Of a stretch of DNA of 64,000 bases, positions 1-59,900 are shown in pieces. Location of the stretch: positions 1-64,000 of the forward strand of contig OZ004588.1 in NCBI GenBank assembly GCA_963924555.1, written 5' to 3'. How positions within the stretch are numbered: position 1 is the stretch's first letter; each line of letters begins with the position of its first letter. Both the position numbers and the translations under genes were made by a program. Origin of the DNA: Crambe crambe (lineage: Eukaryota > Porifera > Demospongiae > Poecilosclerida > Crambeidae). The notes below the pieces were generated by a model. That model made no database searches and was not told the DNA's origin. It was given only the letters and a program-made list of their open reading frames with translations.

Positions 1-3000
1 CTAGCCCTAGCCCTAGCCCTAGCCCTAGCCCTAGCCCTAGCCCTAGCCCTAGCCCTAGCCCTAGCCCTAGCCCTAGCCCTAGCCCTAGCCCTAGCCCTAG
101 CCCTAGCCCTAGCCCTAGCCCTAGCCCTAGCCCTAGCCCTAGCCCTAGCCCTAGCCCTAGCCCTAGCCCTAGCCCTAGCCCTAGCCCTAGCCCTAGCCCT
201 AGCCCTAGCCCTAGCCCTAGCCCTAGCCCTAGCCCTAGCCCTAGCCCTAGCCCTAGCCCTAGCCCTAGCCCTAGCCCTAGCCCTAGCCCTAGCCCTAGCC
301 CTAGCCCTAGCCCTAGCCCTAGCCCTAGCCCTAGCCCTAGCCCTAGCCCTAGCCCTAGCCCTAGCCCTCAGCCCTAGCCCTAGCCCTAGCCCTAGCCCTA
401 GCCCTAGCCCTAGCCCTAGCCCTAGCCCTAGCCCTAGCCCTAGCCCTAGCCCTAGCCCTAGCCCTAGCCCTAGCCCTAGCCCTAGCCCTAGCCCTAGCCC
501 TAGCCCTAGCCCTAGCCCTAGCCCTAGCCCTAGCCCTAGCCCTAGCCCTAGCCCTAGCCCTAGCCCTAGCCCTAGCCCTAGCCCTAGCCCTAGCCCTAGC
601 CCTAGCCCTAGCCCTAGCCCTAGCCCTAGCCCTAGCCCTAGCCCTAGCCCTAGCCCTAGCCCTAGCCCTAGCCCTAGCCCTAGCCCTAGCCCTAGCCCTA
701 GCCCTAGCCCTAGCCCTAGCCCTAGCCCTAGCCCTAGCCCTAGCCCTAGCCCTAGCCCTAGCCCTAGCCCTAGCCCTAGCCCTAGCCCTAGCCCTAGCCC
801 TAGCCCTAGCCCTAGCCCTAGCCCTAGCCCTAGCCCTAGCCCTAGCCCTAGCCCTAGCCCTAGCCCTAGCCCTAGCCCTAGCCCTAGCCCTAGCCCTAGC
901 CCTAGCCCTAGCCCTAGCCCTAGCCCTAGCCCTAGCCCTAGCCCTAGCCCTAGCCCTAGCCCTAGCCCTAGCCCTAGCCCTAGCCCTAGCCCTAGCCCTA
1001 GCCCTAGCCCTAGCCCTAGCCCTAGCCCTAGCCCTAGCCCTAGCCCTAGCCCTAGCCCTAGCCCTAGCCCTAGCCCTAGCCCTAGCCCTAGCCCTAGCCC
1101 TAGCCCTAGCCCTAGCCCTAGCCCTAGCCCTAGCCCTAGCCCTAGCCCTAGCCCTAGCCCTAGCCCTAGCCCTAGCCCTAGCCCTAGCCCTAGCCCTAGC
1201 CCTAGCCCTAGCCCTAGCCCTAGCCCTAGCCCTAGCCCTAGCCCTAGCCCTAGCCCTAGCCCTAGCCCTAGCCCTAGCCCTAGCCCTAGCCCTAGCCCTA
1301 GCCCTAGCCCTAGCCCTAGCCCTAGCCCTAGCCCTAGCCCTAGCCCTAGCCCTAGCCCTAGCCCTAGCCCTAGCCCTAGCCCTAGCCCTAGCCCTAGCCC
1401 TAGCCCTAGCCCTAGCCCTAGCCCTAGCCCTAGCCCTAGCCCTAGCCCTAGCCCTAGCCCTAGCCCTAGCCCTAGCCCTAGCCCTAGCCCTAGCCCTAGC
1501 CCTAGCCCTAGCCCTAGCCCTAGCCCTAGCCCTAGCCCTAGCCCTAGCCCTAGCCCTAGCCCTAGCCCTAGCCCTAGCCCTAGCCCTAGCCCTAGCCCTA
1601 GCCCTAGCCCTAGCCCTAGCCCTAGCCCTAGCCCTAGCCCTAGCCCTAGCCCTAGCCCTAGCCCTAGCCCTAGCCCTAGCCCTAGCCCTAGCCCTAGCCC
1701 TAGCCCTAGCCCTAGCCCTAGCCCTAGCCCTAGCCCTAGCCCTAGCCCTAGCCCTAGCCCTAGCCCTAGCCCTAGCCCTAGCCCTAGCCCTAGCCCTAGC
1801 CCTAGCCCTAGCCCTAGCCCTAGCCCTAGCCCTAGCCCTAGCCCTAGCCCTAGCCCTAGCCCTAGCCCTAGCCCTAGCCCTAGCCCTAGCCCTAGCCCTA
1901 GCCCTAGCCCTAGCCCTAGCCCTAGCCCTAGCCCTAGCCCTAGCCCTAGCCCTAGCCCTAGCCCTAGCCCTAGCCCTAGCCCTAGCCCTAGCCCTAGCCC
2001 TAGCCCTAGCCCTAGCCCTAGCCCTAGCCCTAGCCCTAGCCCTAGCCCTAGCCCTAGCCCTAGCCCTAGCCCTAGCCCTAGCCCTAGCCCTAGCCCTAGC
2101 CCTAGCCCTAGCCCTAGCCCTAGCCCTAGCCCTAGCCCTAGCCCTAGCCCTAGCCCTAGCCCTAGCCCTAGCCCTAGCCCTAGCCCTAGCCCTAGCCCTA
2201 GCCCTAGCCCTAGCCCTAGCCCTAGCCCTAGCCCTAGCCCTAGCCCTAGCCCTAGCCCTAGCCCTAGCCCTAGCCCTAGCCCTAGCCCTAGCCCTAGCCC
2301 TAGCCCTAGCCCTAGCCCTAGCCCTAGCCCTAGCCCTAGCCCTAGCCCTAGCCCTAGCCCTAGCCCTAGCCCTAGCCCTAGCCCTAGCCCTAGCCCTAGC
2401 CCTAGCCCTAGCCCTAGCCCTAGCCCTAGCCCTAGCCCTAGCCCTAGCCCTAGCCCTAGCCCTAGCCCTAGCCCTAGCCCTAGCCCTAGCCCTAGCCCTA
2501 GCCCTAGCCCTAGCCCTAGCCCTAGCCCTAGCCCTAGCCCTAGCCCTAGCCCTAGCCCTAGCCCTAGCCCTAGCCCTAGCCCTAGCCCTAGCCCTAGCCC
2601 TAGCCCTAGCCCTAGCCCTAGCCCTAGCCCTAGCCCTAGCCCTAGCCCTAGCCCTAGCCCTAGCCCTAGCCCTAGCCCTAGCCCTAGCCCTAGCCCTAGC
2701 CCTAGCCCTAGCCCTAGCCCTAGCCCTAGCCCTAGCCCTAGCCCTAGCCCTAGCCCTAGCCCTAGCCCTAGCCCTAGCCCTAGCCCTAGCCCTAGCCCTA
2801 GCCCTAGCCCTAGCCCTAGCCCTAGCCCTAGCCCTAGCCCTAGCCCTAGCCCTAGCCCTAGCCCTAGCCCTAGCCCTAGCCCTAGCCCTAGCCCTAGCCC
2901 TAGCCCTAGCCCTAGCCCTAGCCCTAGCCCTAGCCCTAGCCCTAGCCCTAGCCCTAGCCCTAGCCCTAGCCCTAGCCCTAGCCCTAGCCCTAGCCCTAGC

Positions 3001-6000
3001 CCTAGCCCTAGCCCTAGCCCTAGCCCTAGCCCTAGCCCTAGCCCTAGCCCTAGCCCTAGCCCTAGCCCTAGCCCTAGCCCTAGCCCTAGCCCTAGCCCTA
3101 GCCCTAGCCCTAGCCCTAGCCCTAGCCCTAGCCCTAGCCCTAGCCCTAGCCCTAGCCCTAGCCCTAGCCCTAGCCCTAGCCCTAGCCCTAGCCCTAGCCC
3201 TAGCCCTAGCCCTAGCCCTAGCCCTAGCCCTAGCCCTAGCCCTAGCCCTAGCCCTAGCCCTAGCCCTAGCCCTAGCCCTAGCCCTAGCCCTAGCCCTAGC
3301 CCTAGCCCTAGCCCTAGCCCTAGCCCTAGCCCTAGCCCTAGCCCTAGCCCTAGCCCTAGCCCTAGCCCTAGCCCTAGCCCTAGCCCTAGCCCTAGCCCTA
3401 GCCCTAGCCCTAGCCCTAGCCCTAGCCCTAGCCCTAGCCCTAGCCCTAGCCCTAGCCCTAGCCCTAGCCCTAGCCCTAGCCCTAGCCCTAGCCCTAGCCC
3501 TAGCCCTAGCCCTAGCCCTAGCCCTAGCCCTAGCCCTAGCCCTAGCCCTAGCCCTAGCCCTAGCCCTAGCCCTAGCCCTAGCCCTAGCCCTAGCCCTAGC
3601 CCTAGCCCTAGCCCTAGCCCTAGCCCTAGCCCTAGCCCTAGCCCTAGCCCTAGCCCTAGCCCTAGCCCTAGCCCTAGCCCTAGCCCTAGCCCTAGCCCTA
3701 GCCCTAGCCCTAGCCCTAGCCCTAGCCCTAGCCCTAGCCCTAGCCCTAGCCCTAGCCCTAGCCCTAGCCCTAGCCCTAGCCCTAGCCCTAGCCCTAGCCC
3801 TAGCCCTAGCCCTAGCCCTAGCCCTAGCCCTAGCCCTAGCCCTAGCCCTAGCCCTAGCCCTAGCCCTAGCCCTAGCCCTAGCCCTAGCCCTAGCCCTAGC
3901 CCTAGCCCTAGCCCTAGCCCTAGCCCTAGCCCTAGCCCTAGCCCTAGCCCTAGCCCTAGCCCTAGCCCTAGCCCTAGCCCTAGCCCTAGCCCTAGCCCTA
4001 GCCCTAGCCCTAGCCCTAGCCCTAGCCCTAGCCCTAGCCCTAGCCCTAGCCCTAGCCCTAGCCCTAGCCCTAGCCCTAGCCCTAGCCCTAGCCCTAGCCC
4101 TAGCCCTAGCCCTAGCCCTAGCCCTAGCCCTAGCCCTAGCCCTAGCCCTAGCCCTAGCCCTAGCCCTAGCCCTAGCCCTAGCCCTAGCCCTAGCCCTAGC
4201 CCTAGCCCTAGCCCTAGCCCTAGCCCTAGCCCTAGCCCTAGCCCTAGCCCTAGCCCTAGCCCTAGCCCTAGCCCTAGCCCTAGCCCTAGCCCTAGCCCTA
4301 GCCCTAGCCCTAGCCCTAGCCCTAGCCCTAGCCCTAGCCCTAGCCCTAGCCCTAGCCCTAGCCCTAGCCCTAGCCCTAGCCCTAGCCCTAGCCCTAGCCC
4401 TAGCCCTAGCCCTAGCCCTAGCCCTAGCCCTAGCCCTAGCCCTAGCCCTAGCCCTAGCCCTAGCCCTAGCCCTAGCCCTAGCCCTAGCCCTAGCCCTAGC
4501 CCTAGCCCTAGCCCTAGCCCTAGCCCTAGCCCTAGCCCTAGCCCTAGCCCTAGCCCTAGCCCTAGCCCTAGCCCTAGCCCTAGCCCTAGCCCTAGCCCTA
4601 GCCCTAGCCCTAGCCCTAGCCCTAGCCCTAGCCCTAGCCCTAGCCCTAGCCCTAGCCCTAGCCCTAGCCCTAGCCCTAGCCCTAGCCCTAGCCCTAGCCC
4701 TAGCCCTAGCCCTAGCCCTAGCCCTAGCCCTAGCCCTAGCCCTAGCCCTAGCCCTAGCCCTAGCCCTAGCCCTAGCCCTAGCCCTAGCCCTAGCCCTAGC
4801 CCTAGCCCTAGCCCTAGCCCTAGCCCTAGCCCTAGCCCTAGCCCTAGCCCTAGCCCTAGCCCTAGCCCTAGCCCTAGCCCTAGCCCTAGCCCTAGCCCTA
4901 GCCCTAGCCCTAGCCCTAGCCCTAGCCCTAGCCCTAGCCCTAGCCCTAGCCCTAGCCCTAGCCCTAGCCCTAGCCCTAGCCCTAGCCCTAGCCCTAGCCC
5001 TAGCCCTAGCCCTAGCCCTAGCCCTAGCCCTAGCCCTAGCCCTAGCCCTAGCCCTAGCCCTAGCCCTAGCCCTAGCCCTAGCCCTAGCCCTAGCCCTAGC
5101 CCTAGCCCTAGCCCTAGCCCTAGCCCTAGCCCTAGCCCTAGCCCTAGCCCTAGCCCTAGCCCTAGCCCTAGCCCTAGCCCTAGCCCTAGCCCTAGCCCTA
5201 GCCCTAGCCCTAGCCCTAGCCCTAGCCCTAGCCCTAGCCCTAGCCCTAGCCCTAGCCCTAGCCCTAGCCCTAGCCCTAGCCCTAGCCCTAGCCCTAGCCC
5301 TAGCCCTAGCCCTAGCCCTAGCCCTAGCCCTAGCCCTAGCCCTAGCCCTAGCCCTAGCCCTAGCCCTAGCCCTAGCCCTAGCCCTAGCCCTAGCCCTAGC
5401 CCTAGCCCTAGCCCTAGCCCTAGCCCTAGCCCTAGCCCTAGCCCTAGCCCTAGCCCTAGCCCTAGCCCTAGCCCTAGCCCTAGCCCTAGCCCTAGCCCTA
5501 GCCCTAGCCCTAGCCCTAGCCCTAGCCCTAGCCCTAGCCCTAGCCCTAGCCCTAGCCCTAGCCCTAGCCCTAGCCCTAGCCCTAGCCCTAGCCCTAGCCC
5601 TAGCCCTAGCCCTAGCCCTAGCCCTAGCCCTAGCCCTAGCCCTAGCCCTAGCCCTAGCCCTAGCCCTAGCCCTAGCCCTAGCCCTAGCCCTAGCCCTAGC
5701 CCTAGCCCTAGCCCTAGCCCTAGCCCTAGCCCTAGCCCTAGCCCTAGCCCTAGCCCTAGCCCTAGCCCTAGCCCTAGCCCTAGCCCTAGCCCTAGCCCTA
5801 GCCCTAGCCCTAGCCCTAGCCCTAGCCCTAGCCCTAGCCCTAGCCCTAGCCCTAGCCCTAGCCCTAGCCCTAGCCCTAGCCCTAGCCCTAGCCCTAGCCC
5901 TAGCCCTAGCCCTAGCCCTAGCCCTAGCCCTAGCCCTAGCCCTAGCCCTAGCCCTAGCCCTAGCCCTAGCCCTAGCCCTAGCCCTAGCCCTAGCCCTAGC

Positions 6001-8579
6001 CCTAGCCCTAGCCCTAGCCCTAGCCCTAGCCCTAGCCCTAGCCCTAGCCCTAGCCCTAGCCCTAGCCCTAGCCCTAGCCCTAGCCCTAGCCCTAGCCCTA
6101 GCCCTAGCCCTAGCCCTAGCCCTAGCCCTAGCCCTAGCCCTAGCCCTAGCCCTAGCCCTAGCCCTAGCCCTAGCCCTAGCCCTAGCCCTAGCCCTAGCCC
6201 TAGCCCTAGCCCTAGCCCTAGCCCTAGCCCTAGCCCTAGCCCTAGCCCTAGCCCTAGCCCTAGCCCTAGCCCTAGCCCTAGCCCTAGCCCTAGCCCTAGC
6301 CCTAGCCCTAGCCCTAGCCCTAGCCCTAGCCCTAGCCCTAGCCCTAGCCCTAGCCCTAGCCCTAGCCCTAGCCCTAGCCCTAGCCCTAGCCCTAGCCCTA
6401 GCCCTAGCCCTAGCCCTAGCCCTAGCCCTAGCCCTAGCCCTAGCCCTAGCCCTAGCCCTAGCCCTAGCCCTAGCCCTAGCCCTAGCCCTAGCCCTAGCCC
6501 TAGCCCTAGCCCTAGCCCTAGCCCTAGCCCTAGCCCTAGCCCTAGCCCTAGCCCTAGCCCTAGCCCTAGCCCTAGCCCTAGCCCTAGCCCTAGCCCTAGC
6601 CCTAGCCCTAGCCCTAGCCCTAGCCCTAGCCCTAGCCCTAGCCCTAGCCCTAGCCCTAGCCCTAGCCCTAGCCCTAGCCCTAGCCCTAGCCCTAGCCCTA
6701 GCCCTAGCCCTAGCCCTAGCCCTAGCCCTAGCCCTAGCCCTAGCCCTAGCCCTAGCCCTAGCCCTAGCCCTAGCCCTAGCCCTAGCCCTAGCCCTAGCCC
6801 TAGCCCTAGCCCTAGCCCTAGCCCTAGCCCTAGCCCTAGCCCTAGCCCTAGCCCTAGCCCTAGCCCTAGCCCTAGCCCTAGCCCTAGCCCTAGCCCTAGC
6901 CCTAGCCCTAGCCCTAGCCCTAGCCCTAGCCCTAGCCCTAGCCCTAGCCCTAGCCCTAGCCCTAGCCCTAGCCCTAGCCCTAGCCCTAGCCCTAGCCCTA
7001 GCCCTAGCCCTAGCCCTAGCCCTAGCCCTAGCCCTAGCCCTAGCCCTAGCCCTAGCCCTAGCCCTAGCCCTAGCCCTAGCCCTAGCCCTAGCCCTAGCCC
7101 TAGCCCTAGCCCTAGCCCTAGCCCTAGCCCTAGCCCTAGCCCTAGCCCTAGCCCTAGCCCTAGCCCTAGCCCTAGCCCTAGCCCTAGCCCTAGCCCTAGC
7201 CCTAGCCCTAGCCCTAGCCCTAGCCCTAGCCCTAGCCCTAGCCCTAGCCCTAGCCCTAGCCCTAGCCCTAGCCCTAGCCCTAGCCCTAGCCCTAGCCCTA
7301 GCCCTAGCCCTAGCCCTAGCCCTAGCCCTAGCCCTAGCCCTAGCCCTAGCCCTAGCCCTAGCCCTAGCCCTAGCCCTAGCCCTAGCCCTAGCCCTAGCCC
7401 TAGCCCTAGCCCTAGCCCTAGCCCTAGCCCTAGCCCTAGCCCTAGCCCTAGCCCTAGCCCTAGCCCTAGCCCTAGCCCTAGCCCTAGCCCTAGCCCTAGC
7501 CCTAGCCCTAGCCCTAGCCCTAGCCCTAGCCCTAGCCCTAGCCCTAGCCCTAGCCCTAGCCCTAGCCCTAGCCCTAGCCCTAGCCCTAGCCCTAGCCCTA
7601 GCCCTAGCCCTAGCCCTAGCCCTAGCCCTAGCCCTAGCCCTAGCCCTAGCCCTAGCCCTAGCCCTAGCCCTAGCCCTAGCCCTAGCCCTAGCCCTAGCCC
7701 TAGCCCTAGCCCTAGCCCTAGCCCTAGCCCTAGCCCTAGCCCTAGCCCTAGCCCTAGCCCTAGCCCTAGCCCTAGCCCTAGCCCTAGCCCTAGCCCTAGC
7801 CCTAGCCCTAGCCCTAGCCCTAGCCCTAGCCCTAGCCCTAGCCCTAGCCCTAGCCCTAGCCCTAGCCCTAGCCCTAGCCCTAGCCCTAGCCCTAGCCCTA
7901 GCCCTAGCCCTAGCCCTAGCCCTAGCCCTAGCCCTAGCCCTAGCCCTAGCCCTAGCCCTAGCCCTAGCCCTAGCCCTAGCCCTAGCCCTAGCCCTAGCCC
8001 TAGCCCTAGCCCTAGCCCTAGCCCTAGCCCTAGCCCTAGCCCTAGCCCTAGCCCTAGCCCTAGCCCTAGCCCTAGCCCTAGCCCTAGCCCTAGCCCTAGC
8101 CCTAGCCCTAGCCCTAGCCCTAGCCCTAGCCCTAGCCCTAGCCCTAGCCCTAGCCCTAGCCCTAGCCCTAGCCCTAGCCCTAGCCCTAGCCCTAGCCCTA
8201 GCCCTAGCCCTAGCCCTAGCCCTAGCCCTAGCCCTAGCCCTAGCCCTAGCCCTAGCCCTAGCCCTAGCCCTAGCCCTAGCCCTAGCCCTAGCCCTAGCCC
8301 TAGCCCTAGCCCTAGCCCTAGCCCTAGCCCTAGCCCTAGCCCTAGCCCTAGCCCTAGCCCTAGCCCTAGCCCTAGCCCTAGCCCTAGCCCTAGCCCTAGC
8401 CCTAGCCCTAGCCCTAGCCCTAGCCCTAGCCCTAGCCCTAGCCCTAGCCCTAGCCCTAGCCCTAGCCCTAGCCCTAGCCCTAGCCCTAGCCCTAGCCCTA
8501 GCCCTAGCCCTAGCCCTAGCCCTAGCCCTAGCCCTAGCCCTAGCCCTAGCCCTAGCCCTAGCCCTAGCCCTAGCCCTAG
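1..8579. repeat. Telomeric array (CCCTAG)n / G-strand (CTAGGG)n
   Basis: About 1,430 head-to-tail copies of a 6-bp unit fill the first 8.58 kb. Read inward from the left end, the + strand is the C-rich strand, which is the polarity of a true left telomere: the G-rich strand would run 5' to 3' toward the tip. The G-strand unit is CTAGGG, one base different from the TTAGGG typical of animals. The only irregularity I see is one 7-base unit (CCCTCAG) near 366-372. The array has no flanking sequence on its outer side within the window. Known: CTAGGG occurs as a minor variant in human telomeres and can fold into G-quadruplexes. Inferred: here it is the main telomeric unit, which would need a telomerase RNA template of matching sequence. 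An alternative is a subtelomeric satellite that happens to resemble telomere DNA. Confidence 0.88.
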
Positions 8580-9237
8580 GAGTGGTGGGCATCAATTAGG
8601 AGTGGTGGGCATCAATTAGGAGTGGTGGGCATCAATTAGGAGTGGTGGGCATCAATTAGGAGTGGTGGGCATCAATTAGGAGTGGTGGGCATCAATTAGG
8701 AGTGGTGGGCATCAATTAGGAGTGGTGGGCATCAATTAGGAGTGGTGGGCATCAATTAGGAGTGGTGGGCATCAATTAGGAGTGGTGGGCATCAATTAGG
8801 AGTGGTGGGCATCAATTAGGAGTGGTGGGCATCAATTAGGAGTGGTGGGCATCAATTAGGAGTGGTGGGCATCAATTAGGAGTGGTGGGCATCAATTAGG
8901 AGTGGTGGGCATCAATTAGGAGTGGTGGGCATCAATTAGGAGTGGTGGGCATCAATTAGGAGTGGTGGGCATCAATTAGGAGTGGTGGGCATCAATTAGG
9001 AGTGGTGGGCATCAATTAGGAGTGGTGGGCATCAATTAGGAGTGGTGGGCATCAATTAGGAGTGGTGGGCATCAATTAGGAGTGGTGGGCATCAATTAGG
9101 AGTGGTGGGCATCAATTAGGAGTGGTGGGCATCAATTAGGAGTGGTGGGCATCAATTAGGAGTGGTGGGCATCAATTAGGAGTGGTGGGCATCAATTAGG
9201 AGTGGTGGGCATCAATTAGGAGTGGTGGGCATCAATT
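8578..9237. repeat. Subtelomeric 20-bp satellite, 33 identical units
   Basis: Thirty-three tandem copies of AGGAGTGGTGGGCATCAATT, with no differences that I can see, abut the telomeric array directly. The junction shares the bases TAGG, so the last hexamer runs into the first 20-mer without unique DNA. The + strand here is G-rich, the opposite strand bias to the telomere next to it. Each unit junction reads TTAGG. There are no spacers, so this is not a CRISPR-like array. No coding potential is claimed. Confidence 0.95.
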
Positions 9238-9900
9238 AGAAAAATATGCGTATTTGGCAATTGACATGCGCAATTATCTTAATATGTGTGTTAAGAAAAG
9301 TTTAACAAAATGTCGGTGAATATTTCGAAAGTTAATAGTGAAAAGACTGTACTGAATAGTTGAATTTTGTTGATATGGACAAAATATGCATATTAGCAGA
9401 AAGTTTACACAGAGAACAATGCTATGATATCAAAATTATATGTATACACTTGATATTTCAAAAGTTATGATAGCCAGAAGTCACCATCAGTTATCAGTAG
9501 ATTAGAAATTTGACGACCCTTTACCATGTATTTTGAAAATTGTCGGAATGGACAAAGTAAGTATATAAACAGAAAGCTTACATAAAGAGCAATACTATGC
9601 TATAGAAATTATCTGTATACGATTGATATTTCAAAAGTTATGATAGTATGAATTCGTCATCAGTTACTTTGAAGACCTATTATGATACATTTTCGAAATT
9701 ATAGGTATGGCCAAACTAAGCATATCAATAGATAGCTTAAACAGAGGGCAATGCTGTTATATAGAAATTTTTTGTATTTTCTTTATATTTCAAAAGTTTT
9801 GAGCGAATGAAAGTATTGCATTATAGGTGGGTATCGATATCCACAAATTAAACGTGTGAAATACACACAGAGAGGATATCGGAATTATCTGTATAAATTT
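9238..9900. repeat. Degenerate ~160-175-bp tandem repeat, AT-rich
   Basis: At least three diverged copies of one unit can be aligned by eye. Each has a block reading roughly GGACAAA..ATATA, then AGAAAGCTTACA, then a conserved TGATATTTCAAAAGTTATGA and a CATCAGTTA ending. Matching points lie near 9377, 9550 and 9709, a period of about 160-175 bp. A weaker partial copy may precede them. No ORF is credible here. It looks like an old subtelomeric satellite between the homogeneous arrays and unique DNA. Confidence 0.65.
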
Positions 9901-12915: not shown

Positions 12916-15900
12916 TCTCTCTTTCTGAGTTTGGTTAGAAATGGAATCGGTCAGGGGGGTGAATTACTGTTCCGGTTTGGGACCTTGTCATAATCTGGCG
13001 GGGAGGAGTATCAGGTTGTTGAACTCCATCGGAAGTCTGGTCATTAGGAATAACATTGAGGTGGCGGCGATTCCTCCTCACTAAGCCAGTGGGCGTTTCA
13101 ACTATGTATGACCTTGGAGCATTGGCTGGTGTGATTACCTAGCCTGTGGTCTCAGTCCCAGATGTGATTTGCACTTCTGTGTTGTTAGGAATAGGAGGGA
13201 GTACTCGAACACGATGACGGCTGTCAAAATTCTGCTTCTGCTTTTGTTTAAATTCCACATCCTTACGTCAAAATTCGTCCAGATATGGCCATTTCGGTAG
13301 CAACAGATCATCAACTTGTGGCAGTGCTGTACGGAGCTGTCTGCCCATTAGGAGTTCTGCTGGAGAAATATTACACCAGGGAAGGGGTGTGCTTTGGTAA
13401 CTGAGTACTGCTTGGTAGGGATCTTTTGACTCCTTCAACAGCTTCTTAACTGTTTGTACGGCCCTTTCGGCTAGGCCATTGGATTGCGGATAATGAGGGC
13501 TGCTGGTAATGTGGCAGAAATCGTAAGTTTTGGCAAAGTTAGTAAACTCCTGGGAAGAGTATTGAGGGCCATTGTCACTCATCAGGGTTTCTGGTATACC
13601 AAATCGTGCAAGTATGGGTTTCAAAACTTCGATGATGCTGGCTGAAGTGGTGGTTTTCAACTTCATAACTTCAACAAATCTGGAGAAATAGTCTATGACT
13701 AGTAGATAGGTGGCTCCATTCAGCATGAATAAGTCTGTTCCAATCCTCTGCCAAGGGTAGTCTGGGAGTTTAGTTGAGAGAAGTGGTTCGCTTTTCTGTG
13801 AGGTATTTTTGATGCACTCTGGGCATTTTTCAACCATGTCAGCGATATGCTGTAAAATACCTGGCCACCATACTGCTGTTTTGGCTCGCAATTGTCACCG
13901 TTGTATGCCCTGGTGACCACAATGTATTTTGTGAAGAATTTCTTTCTGCAGTTGTTTAGGTACTAGGATCCTTCTGCCATACAAAAGTAGATTGTTATGA
14001 ACTGTGAGTTCACTTCGTACACGCCAATATGGCTTGAGTGTGACATCGATGTCCCTTTTTTCATTTGGCCAGCCATGTCTGCAGTAATTAATGAGGGATG
14101 AACAAACAGGATCTGTTGCTTGTGCCTTCCGGAAGTCGTCTAGACGTGAACTGTTAGCTGGTAAGTGGTCAACACACATTTCCATCAGTGACTCTGCCTC
14201 CTCCTGGAGTTTTTGGTCTCCATAGTATGATAATGGGGCTCGAGACAGCGTATCTGCAGTGTACAATTCTTTTCCTGGGACATGGATTATGTGATAATCA
14301 AATTGGTCTAACCTCAATCGAAATCGGAGAACTCGGGGTGGAAGGCTATTGAGGTTTTTTGCTCCCAGCAATGGGACCAGTGGCTTGTGATCGGTCTCAA
14401 TTATGAATGATTTTCCCAAGATGTAGCTGGAGAACTTTTCACATGCCCATGTGCTGGCAAGGGCCTCCTTTTCAATTTGTGCGTAATGCTGTTCAGTCTC
14501 GGACATAGAGCGGGAAGCGAATGCTACTGGCTTCCAGGAGGTTTCAGATTTCTGCAATAGGACTGCACCCAGGCCGTAAGATGATGCGTCAGCTGAAACT
14601 TTTGTGTCTGCTTCTGGGTCGTAGAGTGCCAAAATTGTTTCATTAGAGAGTTCTGATTTAACCTTTTGGAAAGCTTGGTCCTGTGGAGTGTTCCACACCC
14701 ACTGTTTCTGTTTGCTCAGTAGTTCTCGTAGAGGTTTAGTCAAATCAGCCAAGTTCTTTGAGAATTTCCCCAGCTGGTTGACCATTCCTAGGAACCTCCT
14801 CAGCTCAGACACTGTTTTAGGGGGGTCCATCTCCAGAATAGCTGAGGTCTTGTTTGGATCTGCTTTGATTCCTTTCTCGTCAATGATATGACCAAGATAC
14901 TTTAGTGATCTTTTTGCGAACTCACATTTTTCCAAATTTAATGTTACTCCTGCAGCTTGAATTCGCCTGAAGACTGTGTCAAGGCGAGTGTTGTGCTCAT
15001 GTAGGTCTTTCCCAAAGATAAGGACATCATCCATCGAACAGAGTACGCCATCAAGACCAACTAGGATTTCAGACATTCGTTTCTGGAAGTGTTCAGGGGC
15101 ACTCGAAATGCCAAACGGTAATTTGTTGAAACAAAATCGTCCGAATGGGGTCAAGAAAGTTGTGAGAAGTCTTGATGGTTTGGCTAGGGGTATTTGCCAA
15201 AACCCACTGTTTGCATCAAGTTTGCTAAATACTCGTGCACCGGCAAGTTGGGCCAAAGTCTCATCAACTTTCGGTAAGGGGTGAACCTCTCGGAGAACAT
15301 TTGAGTTAAGGGGTTTCAAATCTACACACACACGGATTTTATCCCCTTTTTGGCACAACTACCATTCCAGCGCACCATTCGGTTGGTTCATCAACTCTTG
15401 AGATTACTCCCATCGATTCCATTTTTTCCAATTCCTCCTTGACTTTAGAACATAACGGAATTGGAACATGCCTCGGGGCAAATATTGAATGTGGGGATGC
15501 ACCTGGCTTTAATTTGATAGTATACTCACATCCAAGGTTCCCAAGTCCTTGAAACATTGGTGAGTATTTCTGTACAATCTGTGAGCGAATATCTGTAGTT
15601 TCCCCCACCCTTGCTACCAGGTTCAGCTGAGTAATAGCAGGGAGACCAAGCAGGTTATTCTTGAGTCCGTTGATTACGAACACTTGTTGTGTAGTGGTGA
15701 TCTTCCCCTTTGAGAGTTTGGCCATGAATTGTCCTGTGACATCCAAAAGTTGTTTGGATGGTCCATAAAGGATCTTTTCTGCTTTACTGAGTCTGGGTTT
15801 ATCCAGACTTTCAAACGTTTGCTGGGAAATGGCAGTGACTTCTGCTCCAGTATCCAATTTAAATACTGTTTCTTGTCCGTTTATACTTATCTTGTCGACC

Positions 15901-16744
15901 CAAAATGTTTTGGGGTTAGATTCAACAGTATTCAAGAATGCTGCTTCCAAATTACATTCTTCTGTTACTTCTACTTCTGAAATTCTTTTGCTGAAGCATT
16001 GAGAGCTAAAATGCCCTCTCTTTTTGCAATTATGGCACTCGGCATCTATGGCTGGACATTTTTCACGGGGGTGTGGGCCTCTCCCACAGCGAGAACAAGC
16101 TTTAGGTGTCCTGGAATTGTATTTTCTGCCTGTTGCGGGATACTTTCCTCGTCTTGAAGCTAGTTCATTCACAGAACTGAATTCTTTTGACCCTTTTAGT
16201 TCCTGTTGCTGTTCATGGACAGCTTCGTTTTGACGTACCATTTCTTTTGCTTTTTCCAACAAAAGATCAGGGATTAGTTGAAGTCTCTCAGACAGTTCAG
16301 AATCAAGTATTCCCACAATGAGACGATCGCGTATGAGTTCTGGTGTCATCGTTCCATACTCACAGGTTTCTGCCAATTTGTATAGTTCAATGATGTATTG
16401 TTCCACAGATTCCCCCTGTTGCTGATTTCTTCTGTTGAAAACAGCTCTTTCAAATATAACATTCCTCCGTACTTTGAAAAATTTGTCAAATTGCAATAGA
16501 ACTGAGTCATATTTCTTTCTGTCATCTTCTGAAATACCTGTAGAGGTCAAAACATTCTCTGCTTCTTCCCCAAGACAATATAGCAGGGTACTAATCTGTC
16601 TATCTTCAGGATCCCTACTCAGGTTTGATGCAACTCGAAATTGTTCAAATCTTTTTTTCCATCTGGGCCAGTCATTAGGGTTGCGGAAATTAAAGGCATC
16701 TGGAGGTTGTAAACGAATATGAGACATTTTCAATAGCTAGTGTT

Positions 16745-16989: not shown

Positions 16990-17260
16990 ATTTTATTTGC
17001 TAGTTGAACTAAATTTTAGCACATCGTGTCTGTCTAGAAGCCAACAAATTTTCCCACCAAGATGACTGATATGCATCTCCTTTGCTCTACATTAGGTGAG
17101 GAGAAATTTACCATGACACGAAACCTGTGAGATAATAATAGGTGGCGATATGACTGATCCTTCAGCTTCGTGTCCATTCACACATAATGCCTAGCTAATG
17201 GCCTAGATTCACTTTTGACTTTTTAAAAATCATCCAAATTTTTAATTCAAATTTTTATGA
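16990..17260. repeat. Dispersed non-coding repeat, copy A (right part)
   Basis: Shares with 22,490-22,620 the order TTTTAGCAC.TCGTGTC, then AGAAG.CAACAAA, then AAGATG.CTG. It shares with 12,270 the block CCTTCAGCTTC.TGTCCATTCACAC. It appears to be one dispersed repeat, or a cluster of repeats, interrupted by the LTR element. Confidence 0.5.
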
Positions 17261-18900
17261 CCATCTATGGTAGCATGGTGATAACCCCTTAATAACTAAA
17301 TTGTTGCGGGGATATAGTATAATTGCAGGAGCTTGGCTTATCCAAGTGCTTGTGGTAAGCATTTACAGCTTTCTGTATGGAGCTTCCCACCACTTAGATG
17401 ACTGCTTTCTAGTATGTCGACAGCCTGACACAGTTGCTAAAGATTTGAAGCACTTGCTCACTGTCAAATGGTTCGCATTGCCTTAGGATGATACTTAAAT
17501 GAATAATTAAAGAGTACCTAGCTAGCAATTTAACAATTTGGCCAAGGAACAACCGTTACATAAATGACCACAAGAGTAGACTAGTTTGCTGCAAAAGTGT
17601 TTCTTACCAGCAGAAGAAGGCCAGCAAACAGCTCCAACTGTGAAAAATTTGATAGAGAAATGCAGGCTATTAGCAAGTAATTTACACCATTATTCATACA
17701 CTTACCAGTTAACGGGAAGAAGGCCGAGAGCAGAAGAACTAACAAAGATGACAGTAACGAGAGACAGCAACGAACTGAAGTCCAGCAGCAGGCAGACAAA
17801 TAGTCTTCTCTGCCAAAAGGCCTTTTATAGGCTCTAACCATAGATACGCGTCATAATTATATCACATTATGGCTTGACATGACGTAGATTAATATTTGTA
17901 CCTGGCCCTTGACCCACATTGTTGGATCAATCACTGCTCTCCTTCAGCTCCCTACCTCTACCGTGTCTCCTTCAGGGAACTCATAGTTAGGAGAGGATTG
18001 CAAGATTGCAAGGATGATTGTAAGTTGTGAGGATTGCTAGTCGGTTGTCCAATGAGAGATGCAAAACTCAAGGCTGTTGCTCAGTTTTTTATTGCATCAA
18101 TTTGTGCTTTACATTTGGACAGCAGACTTGTAGATGAGACATGGTGTAATGTAATGCCAAGTTGTTTGTTGCAGGACCTTGTAAACTAGTGGCACGGGTG
18201 GGGGATCACATACAGTATTTCGTGACAGTCTGCTAGAAGATATTATATAGCTAATTTGGGCCTGACCTTTGACCCTAATCTCGATGCCAAGTAAGTTTAT
18301 CCCCCTTGCAGGCAAGCCAGCTTAAGGACTGGTTTGAACTGGAACGCTACCGGCTACTATGATGGATGCTATTTTATGTCTCCTTCTGGTGAGGATTGTA
18401 TGGATGATATAATTAATTCGTGTGTGGAATGCTGTCCAGTGGTACAAGTGGCGTGTAATAAGTGAATTACCCTGACAGTAAATCTCAAATTTGATTTTGT
18501 TTCCTCTAAATTGGCAGCGACAGCATTGGCAGACATAGCCTTTCTTTTAATAGACACCAGGTTTGAATGAAACTGTTGGAGCTACGACACGGGGTCTGAA
18601 ATGAGGCAAAGAAATAGGTTAGAGACCAGACAGGCAACGTGTCTGCCAATGCTGTCGCTGCCAATCTTAAGACTTATTGTGCCTCGTCACCTTTATTACC
18701 GTCACCTACTAAAGTATAGGCCCATTAAGTTGTTGGCTAATCACAGAAATGGTTGACTTTTGGCATTTGTCAAAAAAGTTTTGAGCATAATAGGTACCTA
18801 AATGAGCATAATAGGTAAAATTTTGGGGAATTGCTCAAAACCATGATAGGCTTAAAAAAAAGAGAGCATAATAGCCTCAGGCCTAGCTATGGAATATTCA
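17261..18900. other. No gene recognised
   Basis: Short ORFs of 60-86 codons occur on both strands (for example 17,301-17,486 + and 17,581-17,841 -). None shows a recognisable domain, and sense/antisense pairs overlap. The segment holds the inverted repeat described separately and three copies of GAGCATAATAG between 18,780 and 18,870. It is probably degraded repeat DNA between the LTR element and the transposase remnants. Confidence 0.5.
18510..18665. repeat. Perfect 26-bp inverted repeat with 104-bp loop
   Basis: Positions 18,510-18,535 (beginning ATTGGCAGCGACAGC) are the exact reverse complement of 18,640-18,665 (ending GCTGTCGCTGCCAAT). The match stops at both ends. Both arms can be read as SANAVAAN in the appropriate orientation, which hints at an inverted duplication of a short coding or repeat segment; it may equally be a small inverted-repeat transposon remnant. 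Confidence 0.85.
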
Positions 18901-23070: not shown

Positions 23071-24952
23071 CTACTTGGCTCCACCTGCAATACTAGACAA
23101 ATTTCTCAAATAATTTGTAGTTGTACAAGTGATGAAAAAACATACCTCTGTTTCCATGTACTGTTGCTGTAAAATAGCATTCATTTCCAAGTCCTTTTTT
23201 ATTTTCACTTTTAGGAGAGAATGTTTTTCTCTACAACCTGAAGCAATGAATACACTTATTGAAATAAGTATAAGAAAATTCCTAATCAACTTACAATCAT
23301 ACTCTGCTATTATTCTAAGTGAAGTGGAAGCTTCTGAATTGATATCACTACTGCATGTTTCCAAAAGTTGCTGTGGTTGCTTCTCCATTAGTTGATTGAG
23401 ATGCTGTAGAAAAGTCTGAAGATGCAATTTTCCTGCATAGTGAGACTGCTTATTGTATAGGGATGCAAAATTCAATTGACATATTTGGCAGGCGAGAACG
23501 CTATCGTCATCTTCTCCAGAAAAATTAGTTCTGATAAAACTCTCAGCCTTCTCTAGATTCATTCCTGAAGTCAAAAATAATTATTATAACTTCATGCACA
23601 CACGGCACATTAAATACTCTCAGACCTTTATAAGAGTAAGATAGATATTTTTTCAGTTCTTCTATATATCTTACTCTGTCTGCCTTGGCTCGACTGTAAT
23701 ATTCCTATGCACAAATTAATTGCTACTACTCTGTTAATAAAGTTTTCCCTTACATTTTTCTGTTCTGGACCAAGTTCTGCCCACATCTTTCCCAACCTTC
23801 TGGACAATACTGACATTGATTTGGTACCACATTGCTGCTGAACAGCAAGTCTATTCTCAGAGATATAGAGAGAGTACCTTCAAAAAAAACAAAAAACAAA
23901 AAAAAAAACAATAAATTCACTGTGGGCGAAGAAGACTTTTTTTTTAAAAAACTCGTACCCAGTAGCAGGTGGCTTTGGCAAAGCTACCTCAATTTGAGGT
24001 TTTCTACTCTTGCCCTTTGGCCAGCCACCTCCATGCTGTTTCTTTCTGGGGGAGTCCCTTCTATTCACTTTGATTTCTCTTCTTTTCACAGCATGTGGCC
24101 TGTACACTTCTTGTATGTGTGCTGGTGCTGATTTTCAAGGCACCGTCATTATTGATCTGTTATTAACATACTTACCATTTAATGTCAGCACTCCTGACTT
24201 ACACGACTCGAGAGGTAGATGAGAAAAAGTAGGAGGCACAGAGGAAGACCTATGTCCTGATGGCACGACTAACGAATCTTGATGATTGCTATTGGGATGT
24301 GTTACACTGTCCATAATTAAAGAGTTGCCAGTATGAGAAGAATTTGTACTGTTATCTGTCATGTCAGGAGATCCTGCTGGTGATGCAGATTCCAGCAGAC
24401 GTAAAATCTCTTCTTCATTCCCTTCATCTTCGGCCAACAGATACATTGGCATCTCTGAGGGAACTTCCACTAAAATATGAATTATTAGCAGCTCAACAGT
24501 GAGGCAGTCAATGCCAAGAGCCTCAGAAATATGTGCAGTTAATGTATAACTGTTTGAGCAGGTGAGGCACATAATTATAATGAAACTGACCGGGTTCTCT
24601 GTGAGAACGACTAGAATTGGACTCGGAAGGAATAGATGGTGAAGCTGGTAGAGATTTAGTCTGCTTAAACACCGAAGATGATGCCACGTTATAGCGTGAA
24701 ATGTCTGTTGGCAAGAGTGGCAAGGGGTATCCCAATGGTTCTTCACCCCTGATCTGTCCGTGGCCTGAATGAAGGGTACTATACTAGCTCAGTAGCTAAA
24801 ATCAATCGCCCCATACCTTCATTTGCTGATGTGCACGGAGATATAACACCAAGTTTGCCATCATTTGCCACAGGAGATTGCAGAGCACCGTTACTACCCA
24901 ACAGAACCTGTAGATCGTCCACACTACCAAAGAGTTCCTTCAAGATATCCAT
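23071..24952 (-). CDS. HMG-box protein (HMG20-like) with a matrin-type C2H2 zinc finger
   Basis: A spliced gene starting MDILKELFG at 24,952 and ending SSIAGGAK at 23,071. N-terminal exons are acidic and Ser/Pro-rich (YLLAEDEGNEEEILRLLES). A basic stretch GGWPKGKSRKPQ leads into an HMG box split by an intron: LPKPPATG, then YSLYISENRLAVQQQ, SVLSRRLGKMWAELGPEQKN, and EYYSRAKADRVRYIEELKKY. The GGWPKG-KRK lead-in and box resemble HMG20A/HMG20B, which sit in LSD1/CoREST-type repressor complexes. After the box comes LACQICQLNFASLYNKQSH and GKLHL, a C-x2-C-x12-H-x5-H finger of the U1/matrin type, then a helical, Gln-rich tail. Vertebrate HMG20 proteins, as I recall them, lack this finger. Likely a nuclear DNA/chromatin-binding protein; orthology is uncertain. 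Confidence 0.72.
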
Positions 24953-53316: not shown

Positions 53317-56300
53317 TTGACATGCTCTTTTGCATGCTGCATGCCCAGGTCAGTGCAGCAAGCTTCTCTGCTGTGTGCAGCAGTGGCTTTGCTCCTCTAC
53401 TGCAACAGCCTCAGCTGCGGATTCTGCTTTGATGATTTGTCTGCAATCAAAGAAAATCATGATTTGAGACCCTCCACCCCATGGAGCAATCTCCTATGGA
53501 ATGATTTCTGGGGAACACCAATGCACATAGAAGGAAGTCACAAGTCCTATCGTCCTCTGTGTGTGGTCACCTTCAGACTGAACTACATGTTGCATGGACT
53601 GGAGCCAATGGGCTATCATCTGGTGAATGTGCTCCTGCATGCAGTGGTGTGTTACCTCTACGTCCAGCTCTGTGCAGTAGTCTTCACTAAAGTCTGGCCT
53701 GCACTCATAGCTGGACTGCTCTTTGCCGTCCATCCCATACACACCGAAGCGGTGAGTAACAGTATGTGTATGTGTTACAAGTTCCCCTGAGTATCTTGTT
53801 ACTGGAGTGGAATATTGCTAGTTATGGAATGTAGTGTGGGAGAGCCTGTGTGGAACTTGTTGCATTTTTGTGTGCAAATGATCATGTTTGTTCTAGTTGT
53901 GTTTTCCATGCAATTTGTGCATGCAATTGTTGCAGGTGTCTGGGGTGGTGGGGAGAGCTGAGCTCCTTTCATCGATTTGCTTCCTTCTTACACTTTGGGC
54001 CTATTGGAAAGCTGTCTCTCTCACTAGACAGTCCTCACAGAGTAAGCTACTTTTATAAAGAAGATAATGTTTACAACACCAAATTGATGGGGAAAGACAC
54101 CAATTAGGGAGAGAAACATTGTGTAAATGTGTTCCCTCCTTGTTAGCCTATTGAGGCATGATGTAAGCATAAGTGGTAATTCAGTGGTCTAGAGTTTGTA
54201 AGCAAACACTTAGCCGATCTGCATTCCATAATTATACCACACACAGCTGCTGGTGGTGGAGCAGTCAAGTGGTTGGTGTCCAGTCTGTGTTTCTGCCTAT
54301 TCTCTGTCCTTTGCAAGGAGCAAGGAATCACGGCTGTAGCTGTCTGCTTCACCTATGACGTGTTCATCTACCATCAGGTACACAAGTCCCATATCGGTGT
54401 ATACTGACTGACTCTCACCTACTAAACAGTTGACACTACCGTCAGCCATCAAGCTGTTATTCAAAGGTGGTGTAGAGTTTCGACAGCTGCTATTTCGAGG
54501 GTGTGCCCTTGCAGGGTTTACAATGACAGTCATACTCTTACGTCTCCAGGTCATGCGTACAACTTTGCCTATCTTCACTGTGTAAGTTAGTCTGACACTC
54601 TTAGGTCATTGCAAAAGGAAACCACTCAAAGGAGAAAATATATTTGGGAGGTAATATAAAAGCTCTGGTGTTTATATAGCATCATTTTAGAAAGCTGACT
54701 GTACTCACAATCAACCGAATACATATCTTGCATCCTCTTAGATCGCATAATTATATTTGTAGCCATGACAACCCTGCTGTGGCATTCCCCAGTCCCTACC
54801 GCCAACTTCACTGGCTCTACCTGACCTCTGTCAACCTGTGGCTCCTCCTGTCTCCTTCCTTCCTCTGTGCAGACTGGACCATGGGTACTATCCCCCCCAT
54901 CTCCTCCCTTGCTGACCCACGACACCTATCCACTCTCCTTTCTCTCCTCTCCGTCTTCATGCTCCTCACCTATGCCCTTACATCCTCCTCCAAACGTGCT
55001 AAGCTTGTCCTCTTTGCTCTCGCTCTGATCATTCTCCCCTTTATTCCGGCTTCAAACTTTCTCTTCCCTGTTGGGTTCGTGGTGGCAGAAAGGGTGCTCT
55101 ACCTTCCCAGCATGGGCTACTGTTTGTTGACAGCCTTGGGCATCTGGTTAGTGCTGCAGACAAAGCGTTGGAATACTCCACTCCTCTTCTGTTTGATAGC
55201 CTGTCTGGGCATTCTCTCCTTCAAGACATTTGTAAGGAACCAGGATTGGAAAAACGATGATCACCTTTTCCAAGCCGCGATTCGCATAAATCCAGGGAAT
55301 GGTAAGATTTATAACAATTTGGGACATGCATACGAGGGAAGAGGAAACTATTCCTATGCTGAGAAACTTTTTCGCATGGCATCTCGAGTTCAGCCTGACG
55401 ATATTGGGGCTTTCATCAACCTTGGACGCACCCTAAAGCAAATGGGACACTACCGAAAGGCAGAAAAGGTGAGCTCTTCTCTATGATAACATACTCTTTC
55501 AATATCTCCAAAGTTATGAAAATACCGAGTCAAACTTCAAAAAATTGGTTTACACACACACATACGGAAATTTTCGTAAATAATAATTCATGTTTACTTT
55601 TTGTTGTTACAGCTAATGTACTTGTAATTAGCTTTTTCATGTGATTAATTTTCATGACCAAGAAAATAACATTGTAGTGCTTACAACTGATACTGTTTTT
55701 AATTTCACAGGCATACTTGCATGCCATAGACTTGATGCCATCAGGCAAGTCCTTCCGAATAGCTCCTGGTCACATCAATGTGTACTACAACCTAGCCAAC
55801 CTTGTCAAGCTGGATACCAGGCGGATGCAGGAAGCTTACCAATTATACCAGCAAGCAATCTCCATGAAGCCTGATTTTGTGGAAGCCCATATGAACAAAG
55901 GTGACCTCCTGCTTCAGATGAACCAAACAGAGGATGCACGGCAGTCATTTGAGACGGCACTCAAACATAATCCGCACTACACAGATGCTCACTACAACCT
56001 AGCCACTGCCCTGTTACAGTTGGGCAGACACAGAGATGCAGAACTCAGCTATCGACGAGCACTTGCTCTGGATTCTTCCCACATCCACTCATTGCTTGGC
56101 CTGGCAAGTCTCCTCCAAGAAGGAGGTCACACTCAGCAAGCACTGCAAATGTAAGTAGCTATATACTGTGATGGCATCTATAATGTATAGCAATTCTTGT
56201 CCATGTTACAGGTTCCAGCAAGTGTTGACCCTTGACCCCACCAATATCCGAGCTTATTTTAATCTTGCCCTGCTCTACCTTGATCAGCAGGACATGCAAA

Positions 56301-56877
56301 GTTCAGAGTCCATGTTCTTGCAGGCTCTGGCTATCGATCCAACTTATCGCAGTGCTTTATACAACATTGCAGTGCTATACAGTCACCAGCAGAGAGTGAC
56401 AGAAGCTATAGGACACCTGCAACACCTTATTTCCATCTATCCCGATCATTTAAATGGAGCACAACTGCTTGGAGATTGCTATATGAGATTGCAACAACCA
56501 AAGTTAGCAGAAAAACTATATCACCATGTCCTTGACAGGAATCCTAACCATGTAGCTGCTCTGCATAACCTTGGTGAGTAAATAACTAATATACTCTTTT
56601 GGTCATGGGAGCGTAATTGAAGGTACCTGGCACGATGTGGATCCATATTTGACCACAAGGTACAAAGTGTATGCATCATAATGCTATTTATGTTTAATAA
56701 TAATCCATAGGTGTGGCAAAAGCAGAAAGCAGTCACTTTGAGGACGCCATTACTCTATTTCGAAAGGTCTTGACAATAGAACCATCACACTCAGCAGCCA
56801 GAAAACACTTAGAACAAGCTCAGCTTCAAACTCGCACATCAAAGCATGCTAATTCTACCAAGCACTCAAAAACATAA
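53317..56877 (+). CDS. TMTC3: TMTC3-like O-mannosyltransferase, tandem copy 1
   Basis: A multi-exon gene from about [19 protein letters not shown] (start least certain) to ANSTKHSKT, stop at 56,877. It reads through a first membrane helix, [125 protein letters not shown] and [24 protein letters not shown] array follows ([40 protein letters not shown] and others). The FDD motif, VHPIHTEAV and the DUF1736-TPR order match TMTC proteins, closest to TMTC3. TMTC enzymes are ER membrane O-mannosyltransferases acting on cadherin-type domains. Copy 2 lies 88 bp downstream. Confidence 0.93.
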
Positions 56878-56965
56878 TTGTTTTTTTAATGCCTCATGAT
56901 AAACTATTTAATCCGTAATTTAACTCCGTACGTTGCTACACGTGGCCTGTGGCCCTGTGAGAGAG

Positions 56966-59900
56966 ATGATGAATGTGTGGATTTGTGCAGGTCTAGTGTG
57001 TGCTGTGTTAGGTGCTGTAGTGTACTTAGACACTTTAGATTGTGGGTTCTGCTTCGATGATGATGCTGCAGTAGAAAACAATGATGATCTCAGACCAAAT
57101 ACTTCTTGGGCCAACCTTCTCTGGAATGACTTCTGGGGACTCTCAATAAGTCATAAAGACAGTCACAAGTCCTATCGTCCTCTGTGTGTGGCCACCTTCA
57201 GACTGAACTACATGTTGCATGGACTGGAGCCAATGGGCTATCATCTGGTGAATGTGCTCCTGCATGCAGTTGTGTGTTACCTCTATGTCCAGCTCTGTGC
57301 AGTAGTCTTCACTAAAGCCTGGCCTGCACTCGTAGCTGGACTGCTCTTTGCCGTCCACCCCATACACACCGAAGCTGTGAGTAATGCACACCTTGATACA
57401 TGTATTGGATGCATGCTGTATAGTATGACTAGGTTGCTGGGTTGGTGGGTCGAGCTGACATTCTGGCTGCTCTCCTCTTCATATCTGCAATACTCTTGTA
57501 CCGAAGAGCATTACTGGAGGAAAGAACATCTCCATTGATTTCTCTCTCCCTCATCTTCTGTCTCGGCTCTGCCCTCTGTAAAGAAATAGGCATAACTTCA
57601 GTTTCCCTCTGTCTCTCCTACGAGTTTTTCATCCACATGCAGGTAACACGTGGTAACCTCCTGTAAATGCACACATGAAAGCGAATTGATCTCTTCCCTG
57701 TTAGATGGATCTACCAGCTTCTCTCTCCCTCTTGAATGGTCTGTGGAAGGGTCGACTTTGGTCATCCAGGCTCATGCCTTTCGTCAAACGAGTGTTCTTA
57801 TTCGTTCTGTGCACTTTGACCTTTCTAGTGTTCCGTTTCAAACTCAATCAAGGACCTCCAATATTTTCAGTGTGAGTTTCAGAATAGTTGCTTCCCTTCA
57901 CTGTATTAGTTCCATTACTTGCAGGCATAATAACCCGGCATTGGGATTTGAAACCCCTTACCGACAGCTCCATTGGGCCTATCTGATTTTCTACAACCTG
58001 CAGTTGCTATTTCTTCCCTCTGGTTTGATGGCTGAATATCCCATGGGCACCATTCCTCCCATTTCCTCTCTACTCGACTATCGGAACATTGTTACATTGG
58101 CTACATTTGCCACCCTCTTCTTCTTCAGCTGGAAAAGTGTCACTTGCTGTGACTTGTACACCAGAAAACCTCTGGTCTTTGGTCTGGCACTAATGATCTT
58201 CCCTTTCCTCCCAGCCTCCAACCTCTTCTTTCCCGTTGGGTTTGTGGTGGCTGAGAGAGTGCTTTATATCCCCAGCATGGGATTCTGTATCTTGGTGGCC
58301 TTGGGATTTTGGAAGCTGAAGCAGTCGTGTCCCTTCATCGTGAAAGTGGGAATTGCTTACTTGCTAGTAGTCCATTCTACCAAGACTTGTGTGCGAAATA
58401 GAGATTGGTATTCGTCCATAGACTTATTTCAATCTGCAGTTACTGTAGCTCCAAATAATGGCAAGATGTTCAACAACCTTGCATCGCAGATAGACTTGGC
58501 AGGCAACAAAACTCTTGCAGTACAATTATTCCGCCAGTCCATTCGTGTGGAGCCATATTTTATCACAGCATATGGAAATCTGGCCTACTGTTTACGAGGA
58601 CTTGGCAACATGTCCGAGGCAACCAAGGTCAGTTAAACCTTGTCCTCTGAGATAGAATTTCAAGTGGTTGGTATGACCTGTAGGTGTACCAGCAGGCAGC
58701 AGATTTGGTAACACGGGGGCTTGGAACAAACGAAACCATCCATGTCACTCCCAAAAATGTCAAGATGTACAACAGTCTCTCTAACATGCTACGAGAGCAT
58801 TCAAATGATGGTGCGGGGGCTCTGTACTATGCCAATAAAGCTATAGAGGTGGAGCCTGACTGGGAGAATGGCTACCACTCGAAAGCCAATGCTCTGGTCC
58901 ACTTGGGCAAGCTGCAAGAAGCAAAGCAAGAATTTGAGAAGGCCCTCAGCATTAACCCCCAATTTATGAAGGCTCGCTCCAATTATGGAGACTGTTTAGA
59001 GAAAATTGGCCAATTTGAGCAAGCTGAGGAGCAGTACCGAAAAGCTCTCCGAATAGAACCCACCAGTATTCTGGTCAAGTTCAGACTGGCAGGGCTCATT
59101 GTCAAGTATAAAAGTGCCACAACACAACTCCTTTTAGAGGCAGAACAATTGTGAGTTGTAGCTTGGAACTTTCTTACTCAGACATTCAGCGTGATGCGTT
59201 GACTGTCAAAAGCTAAATCGGTGTGAAATCGGTCACAAAAAACTAGCCATCTATAGACTTGGGAAATATCCAACACTCAAATGTGAATCAAAGTATGGTG
59301 CCTTTTGAGCAGTAAAACCTAAATTGGGATTTTTTTTGCCTATTTCCAAGTCCATAGACTTCTGAAATTTCCGAAAATGTCATGAGATCAATTACACTGA
59401 AATGTGATTCTGAAAGTGTGAATCTTTAGTTAACATTTACATTTGAATGTCTGGCCCTGTTGGATTGTGCAAGACTTCCGTGTTTGAGATTTTCTTCATT
59501 TGGGATGACCATCAAAGGTCATGCCTGCGGCATTACCAATCTGATTTTGCATGGTACTGGGCTAAGCTGTGCTCTCCTTCCTCTAGCTAGCTGTTTCAGT
59601 GAGGCAGCATTGTCTCTAGCACCTGGCTTGTCACCGTCCAAGTCTTGTATATTGTTCTCTTTTCTAGCTTAGACTTACTACAGTGGTGCCTCCCCCTTTT
59701 CATGCCTAGCACATTAAATAATTGTACAGGTTAAAGGACGTGCTAGTGGTGGAGCCAGCCAATGGAAATGCAACCTTCACTCTGGGACTGGTTTTTTATG
59801 ACCTGAAGAGATATGTGGAGGCTGAACAACTGTTTCAGCAAGTCCTTCAGATTTCTCCCAATGACAAAGGAGCTCTCTATAATCTTGGTGTCTTGCTCAC

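Follow-up and report, generated by a model that had tools for sequence, protein, structure and literature searches.

Terminal CTAGGG arrays in place of TTAGGG at chromosome ends of the demosponge Crambe crambe

The stretch of DNA analysed here (the window, 64,000 nucleotides, C11:1-64000) forms the start of a chromosome-size scaffold of Crambe crambe, C11 (7,656,483 bases), and opens with an almost uninterrupted array of the hexamer CTAGGG. We interpret this array as the left telomere of the scaffold, and the telomeres of this demosponge as having switched from TTAGGG to CTAGGG, a reading to which we assign a probability of roughly 0.9. The most likely mechanism behind such ends is a telomerase with a changed template.

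Terminal arrays on C11 and the other chromosome scaffolds

Tandem Repeats Finder described positions 1-8579 of the window as a repeat of period 6 with 1429.7 copies and 99% matches. The content of this stretch was 1428 exact CTAGGG units and a single odd unit (Table 1). The forward strand of the window reads CCCTAG, so the 3' direction of the G-rich CTAGGG strand points toward base 1, which is the polarity of a telomere, and base 1 of the window is base 1 of C11. At its inner edge the array passes directly into a satellite (8577-9239), the letters TAG being common to both.

The genome searched comprised 143,139,886 bases in 119 contigs, with 18 chromosome-size scaffolds and thus 36 ends. The published assembly of this poecilosclerid, odCraCram1.1 (GCA_963924555.1), is described as having 18 chromosomes, 124 scaffolds and 143.20 Mb, based on PacBio HiFi data (459x) with a consensus QV of 58.1 (PMC12166358). 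Coverage at the starts was 10 kb for 17 scaffolds and 600 bases for C21; at the right-hand side, all 18 were covered over their final 600 bases. The hexamer was scored in the terminal 600 bases, as CCCTAG at starts and as CTAGGG at ends. CTAGGG-type arrays with >97% hexamer coverage of the terminal 600 bases were present at 28 of the 36 ends (15/18 starts, 13/18 ends), and all 28 were oriented as expected of a telomere. At the right end of C6 the array was followed by a 13-base degenerate tail. A TTAGGG telomere was found at 0/36 ends in the terminal 600 bases, where TTAGGG-type hexamers covered at most 1% at any end. The preliminary description, drawn from the letters of the window, had claimed an 8.58 kb single-hexamer array in telomere polarity, taken it for the chromosome end of an early animal and would have been contradicted by TTAGGG at the other ends. 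On these points it was borne out: the array has one odd unit only and reaches the first base of C11, the organism is an early-branching animal, a sponge, and the two repeats stand at 28/36 versus 0/36 ends.

Eight of the 36 ends had no array at the tip (left ends of C1, C12 and C15; right ends of C1, C10, C13, C17 and C21). No array was present in the last 600 bases of the five right ends, the stretch covered there, and the 10 kb examined at the left end of C15 held nothing beyond a 49-base degenerate CTAGGG-type piece. The starts of C1 and C12 carry arrays arranged head to head further inside (Table 1), which reflect either misassembly or a real end fusion. At the C12 junction, palindromic CCTAGG was frequent, and satellite variants differed between its two sides. 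The right end of C21 (C21:5,670,725-5,671,324) had a GC content of 0.57 and a 176-residue open frame that resembled a bacterial ABC-transporter permease by eye, with no database match. It is probably symbiont DNA joined onto the smallest chromosome scaffold.

Unit purity was determined in the 14 start arrays reaching base 1 among the 17 scaffolds fetched to 10 kb (83,221 bases in total, array lengths 4.8-8.6 kb). Exact CTAGGG accounted for 13,813 of 13,870 units (99.6%), as would follow from template copying, which is expected to give homogeneous units. The 57 odd units included 20 CTAGGGG, 13 CTAGG, 8 CTAG, 3 ATAGGG, one TTAGGG and one TTAGGGGG. The eight CTAG units are probably pieces cut off at the scaffold edge, since the arrays open with CTAG. 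Odd units lay mainly in the outermost (33/57) and innermost (23/57) quarters, 18 of the latter 23 on C13 and C17. Both the TTAGGG and the TTAGGGGG unit belonged to the C13 array, in which 10 of 11 odd units were in the innermost quarter.

Genome-wide, (CTAGGG)6 occurred at 18,839 + 21,531 places (approximately 40,000; reversed-pattern control 0), by arithmetic about 240 kb in all at one place per unit. Among the matches listed, all were on C1, and one was a 61-base internal run. By comparison, (TTAGGG)4 occurred at two places, both short and internal. CCCTAA islands on C6, C8, C9 and C13 were considered as TTAGGG relics and dropped. The islands near the starts of C6, C8 and C9 proved to be an AACCT-rich subtelomeric satellite of approximately 204-224 bases, the AACCT blocks of which are mistaken for CCCTAA in hexamer counts; similar CCCTAA-type islands occurred at the start of C13, judging by hexamer count alone.

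The satellite adjoining the array in the window is built of the 20-base unit TAGGAGTGGTGGGCATCAAT. All 32 genome matches to an exact 40-base dimer of TAGGAGTGGTGGGCATCAAT were on C11 (32/32), and this private variant suggests local homogenisation. With a phase-fixed pattern, the 20-base satellite was found to abut a telomere at four places (C11 8577-9239, the starts of C5 and C20, and C12 at 15.1 kb). Retrotransposon-type and TMTC-like frames lie further inside the window (Table 1).

Table 1. Position, strand and description of the features discussed in the text.
Feature	Location	Strand	Description
Terminal telomere array, (CTAGGG)n	window 1..8579	-	about 1430 units; up to the first base of C11
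Sole odd unit of the array, CTGAGGG	window 365..371	-	7 bases, one extra base near 369; seen in the printed sequence
Subtelomeric satellite	window 8577..9239	+	33 copies of 20-base TAGGAGTGGTGGGCATCAAT; adjoins telomere
Retrotransposon-type domains near telomere	window 13268-16736	-	protease, reverse transcriptase/RNase H and integrase in separate open frames
Two adjoining TMTC-like open frames	window 54680-58636	+	TMTC_DUF1736; TPR repeats over cut-off in the first only
Head-to-head arrays, C1 left	forward from ~10,210, present at 17,000; reversed by 20,000, present at 24,300		from 10.2 kb inside
Head-to-head CTAGGG/CCCTAG arrays, C12 left	762-7762, then 7780 to ~15,129		from 0.8 kb inside
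TERT RNA-binding domain (Telomerase_RBD)	C6:7555175-7555665		two pieces over Pfam cut-off
POT1-like gene 1	C20:502,097		POT1 domain E 7.4e-25; protein vs human POT1 E 1.4e-32
POT1-like gene 2	C21:151,856		POT1 domain E 4.4e-11; protein vs human POT1 E 6.5e-12

Telomerase, cap proteins and DNA structure

By homology, Crambe crambe encodes TERT, which was seen as pieces and not as a full-length gene (Table 1). In straight six-frame translation the first piece is interrupted by a single TAG, which may mark an intron. The T motif (SFFYVTE...KKVW) aligned to human TERT with an E value of 8.5e-5, and motif 1/2 (LRFIPK...RPIVN) aligned weakly (E 0.13). The presence of a TERT with these motifs bears on the possibility that the CTAGGG ends are genuine and yet maintained without telomerase, by ALT-like recombination or by a terminal satellite system. 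Such maintenance could account for the telomerase RNA not being found (see below), and the head-to-head arrays of C1 and C12, together with the end-private satellite variant, might be traces of end recombination, or else of misassembly. We consider it very unlikely, given the TERT motifs and the 99.6% exact units, which fit template copying.

Maintenance by telomerase would, in our preferred reading, involve a template that reads CUAGCCC(U) in place of CUAACCC(U), from which CTAGGG repeats would be added. Telomerase copies its RNA template, so arrays of almost pure CTAGGG point to a template reading CUAGCCC. The simplest route to the switch would be A to G at one position of the telomerase RNA (TR) template. 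No second change would be needed if the template is short, about 1.3 repeats, because the altered base would then occur once. A snail telomerase reportedly has an 8-nt template, and in published sponge TRs the pseudoknot, CR4/5 and H/ACA domains are retained (PMC8480181).

The template-like sequence CTAGCCCTAGC with broken flanks (pattern DCTAGCCCTAGCD) was present at 74 places (38+36), as opposed to 12 (8+4) for a reversed-pattern control. This roughly sixfold excess came partly from clusters and a dispersed repeat. Candidates were examined at 57 of the 74 places (56 loci), leaving out 13 in a C12 tandem cluster and four of a five-place C14 cluster; inspection of these 57 revealed no TR-like locus. 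A cmscan of the 56 loci and three further loci gave no match to an Rfam telomerase family at E<=10. A home-made pseudoknot filter, which was strict and had no positive control, was passed by 0 of 60 sites (the 57 places and three from a pattern of template, T-run and A-run) and by 2 of 122 shuffled controls. Patterns of the latter kind gave 27 matches, several of them overlapping (reversed-pattern control 2), and 1 match (control 0). Four places of the first pattern were examined, and the remaining ones, as well as the single match, were seen over their first 80 bases. One place, on C20, had a flank resembling that of human TR; it was rejected, as an inverted repeat on both sides, noticed by eye, suggests a transposon-like element. 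The other three examined places were rejected as well.

Animal telomere sequence is strongly conserved, save in some arthropods and nematodes, since any change must suit telomerase and cap proteins together. POT1-type and double-strand telomere proteins of Crambe crambe would have to tolerate, or may now prefer, a C at the first position. Two POT1-like genes were identified by sequence match, on C20 and C21 (Table 1). Both contain POT1PC matches, with 24% identity between the two, and this divergence possibly reflects a duplication with divided roles. Arg273 of human POT1 presumably contacts the thymine that would be a C in CTAGGG. Counted on alignments of the two Crambe proteins with human POT1, which are uncertain in this region, the residue is kept in neither POT1-like protein, an observation that we take as a lead only. 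In human POT1, OB1 binds TTAGGG and OB2 binds TTAG, and the Myb domains of TRF1/TRF2 recognise TAGGGTT (PMC7617103). Given these recognition sequences, the base changed in CTAGGG lies within the recognised letters. A genome search for the TRF domain (PF08558) gave no match, and its controls gave no match either.

Two further proposals of the preliminary description concerned these components. For the POT1-type proteins, which would have to bind CTAGGG, two POT1-like genes are present. A changed telomerase RNA template is inferred from the repeat: the repeat is CTAGGG and TERT is present, and the RNA was sought and not found.

With respect to DNA structure, d[AGGG(CTAGGG)3] forms a chair-type quadruplex with two G-tetrad layers (PMC6330691). 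In a simple DNA fold that ignores quadruplexes, (CTAGGG)8 reached -5.2 kcal/mol versus 0 for (TTAGGG)8, a difference that arises because CTAG is self-complementary. When the letters of (CTAGGG)8 were dinucleotide-shuffled, they folded even better (mean -9.09), so the fold indicates no special design.

Assembly and base calling as sources of the repeat

The real telomere might still be TTAGGG, with CTAGGG as an adjoining subtelomeric satellite and the distal TTAGGG lost in assembly. Assemblers can trim terminal tracts, and the fetched arrays stop at the scaffold edge, hence nothing distal would be visible. Against such a hidden cap, (TTAGGG)4 occurred at just two short internal places in 143 Mb despite 459x HiFi data, and all 28 terminal arrays had telomere polarity. 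TTAGGG-like units were confined to the C13 array, where odd units were mostly innermost. We regard a lost TTAGGG cap as a little less probable still than maintenance by recombination.

Telomere miscalls are known in some nanopore basecallers. A sequencing or consensus artefact by which TTAGGG was miscalled as CTAGGG has next to no chance here, since 459x HiFi data with a QV of 58.1 (PMC12166358) leave no credible room for a consistent error at every sixth base. In addition, TTAGGG made up one of 13,870 units, CTAGGG appeared at 28 ends, on the left as well as on the right, and the two internal TTAGGG tracts were called as such.

Reach of the switch and comparison with known telomeres

For the lineage-wide switch raised in the preliminary description, one weak hint from a second poecilosclerid came to light: LWTN01000175.1 contains an internal 35-base CTAGGG run (5749-5783). 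This record has been placed in the MAG of a Cycloclasticus symbiont of 'Poecilosclerida sp. M'. In view of its Helitron and PIF1 domains it is probably mis-binned host DNA, and the record title and the Helitron point to a sponge as its probable origin. No DNA match at 1e-5 was found between it and the window or the other Crambe crambe loci fetched, and the MAG holding it contained no (TTAGGG)3 and no further (CTAGGG)3 places. In the prokaryote collection, (CTAGGG)5 was found in 38 stretches with no unbroken run longer than 95 bases; the other 37 were in records titled bacteria, with runs of 30-95 bases, and the viral collection gave two stretches. Such runs evidently arise in other ways, which makes LWTN01000175.1 a weak indication.

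With odds that we place somewhat short of even, CTAGGG may be ancestral in a sponge clade that includes at least Poecilosclerida, and may represent the first full replacement of TTAGGG outside Bilateria, with one template base altered and a duplicated POT1 diverging alongside. If true, an animal can have all its chromosomes capped by a repeat linked to human telomere instability. The one-letter change would require changed telomerase and cap proteins, and the co-evolution of template RNA and POT1/TRF-type proteins would become directly testable. Work on such sponges with TTAGGG probes, TRAP primers or telomere-length software could overlook their telomeres or read them wrongly. The nearly pure CTAGGG of this sponge amounts to a natural one-base switch, to a repeat that reportedly weakens the binding of human TRF1/TRF2 (PMC3919612).

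Sponge telomeres have been described as exclusively TTAGGG, in three species (PMC5793068, citing Sakai 2007, the title of which names FISH). Species with CTAGGG telomeres were not reported among the literature matches listed, which comprised titles and abstract starts, with closed-access papers and supplements outside. The TeloBase article contains no CTAGGG in its main text, the database itself being outside this scope. The word 'telomere' and its derivatives were absent from the main text of PMC12166358, and by word count 'telomere' was absent from each of the 11 sponge genome notes surveyed, Crambe included.

The telomeres of Crambe crambe resemble canonical animal (TTAGGG)n in having a six-base G-rich terminal repeat, in polarity and in kilobase length. 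They differ in the first base, which is C instead of T in practically every unit, and in the lack of any TTAGGG array, of which the genome has just two short internal tracts. CTAGGG also occurs as a human variant repeat (PMC3919612, which lists Mendez-Bermudez 2009); the hexamer is shared, although it is a minority inside human TTAGGG telomeres and practically the sole unit in Crambe crambe. CTAGGG diminishes TRF1/TRF2 binding, and extension by human telomerase reportedly raises first-position variants (PMC3919612). Telomere-motif switches in Hymenoptera and Coleoptera are assumed to follow changes in the telomerase RNA template (PMC9841428). The repeat has been replaced likewise in Crambe crambe, in this case in a sponge and by another substitution.
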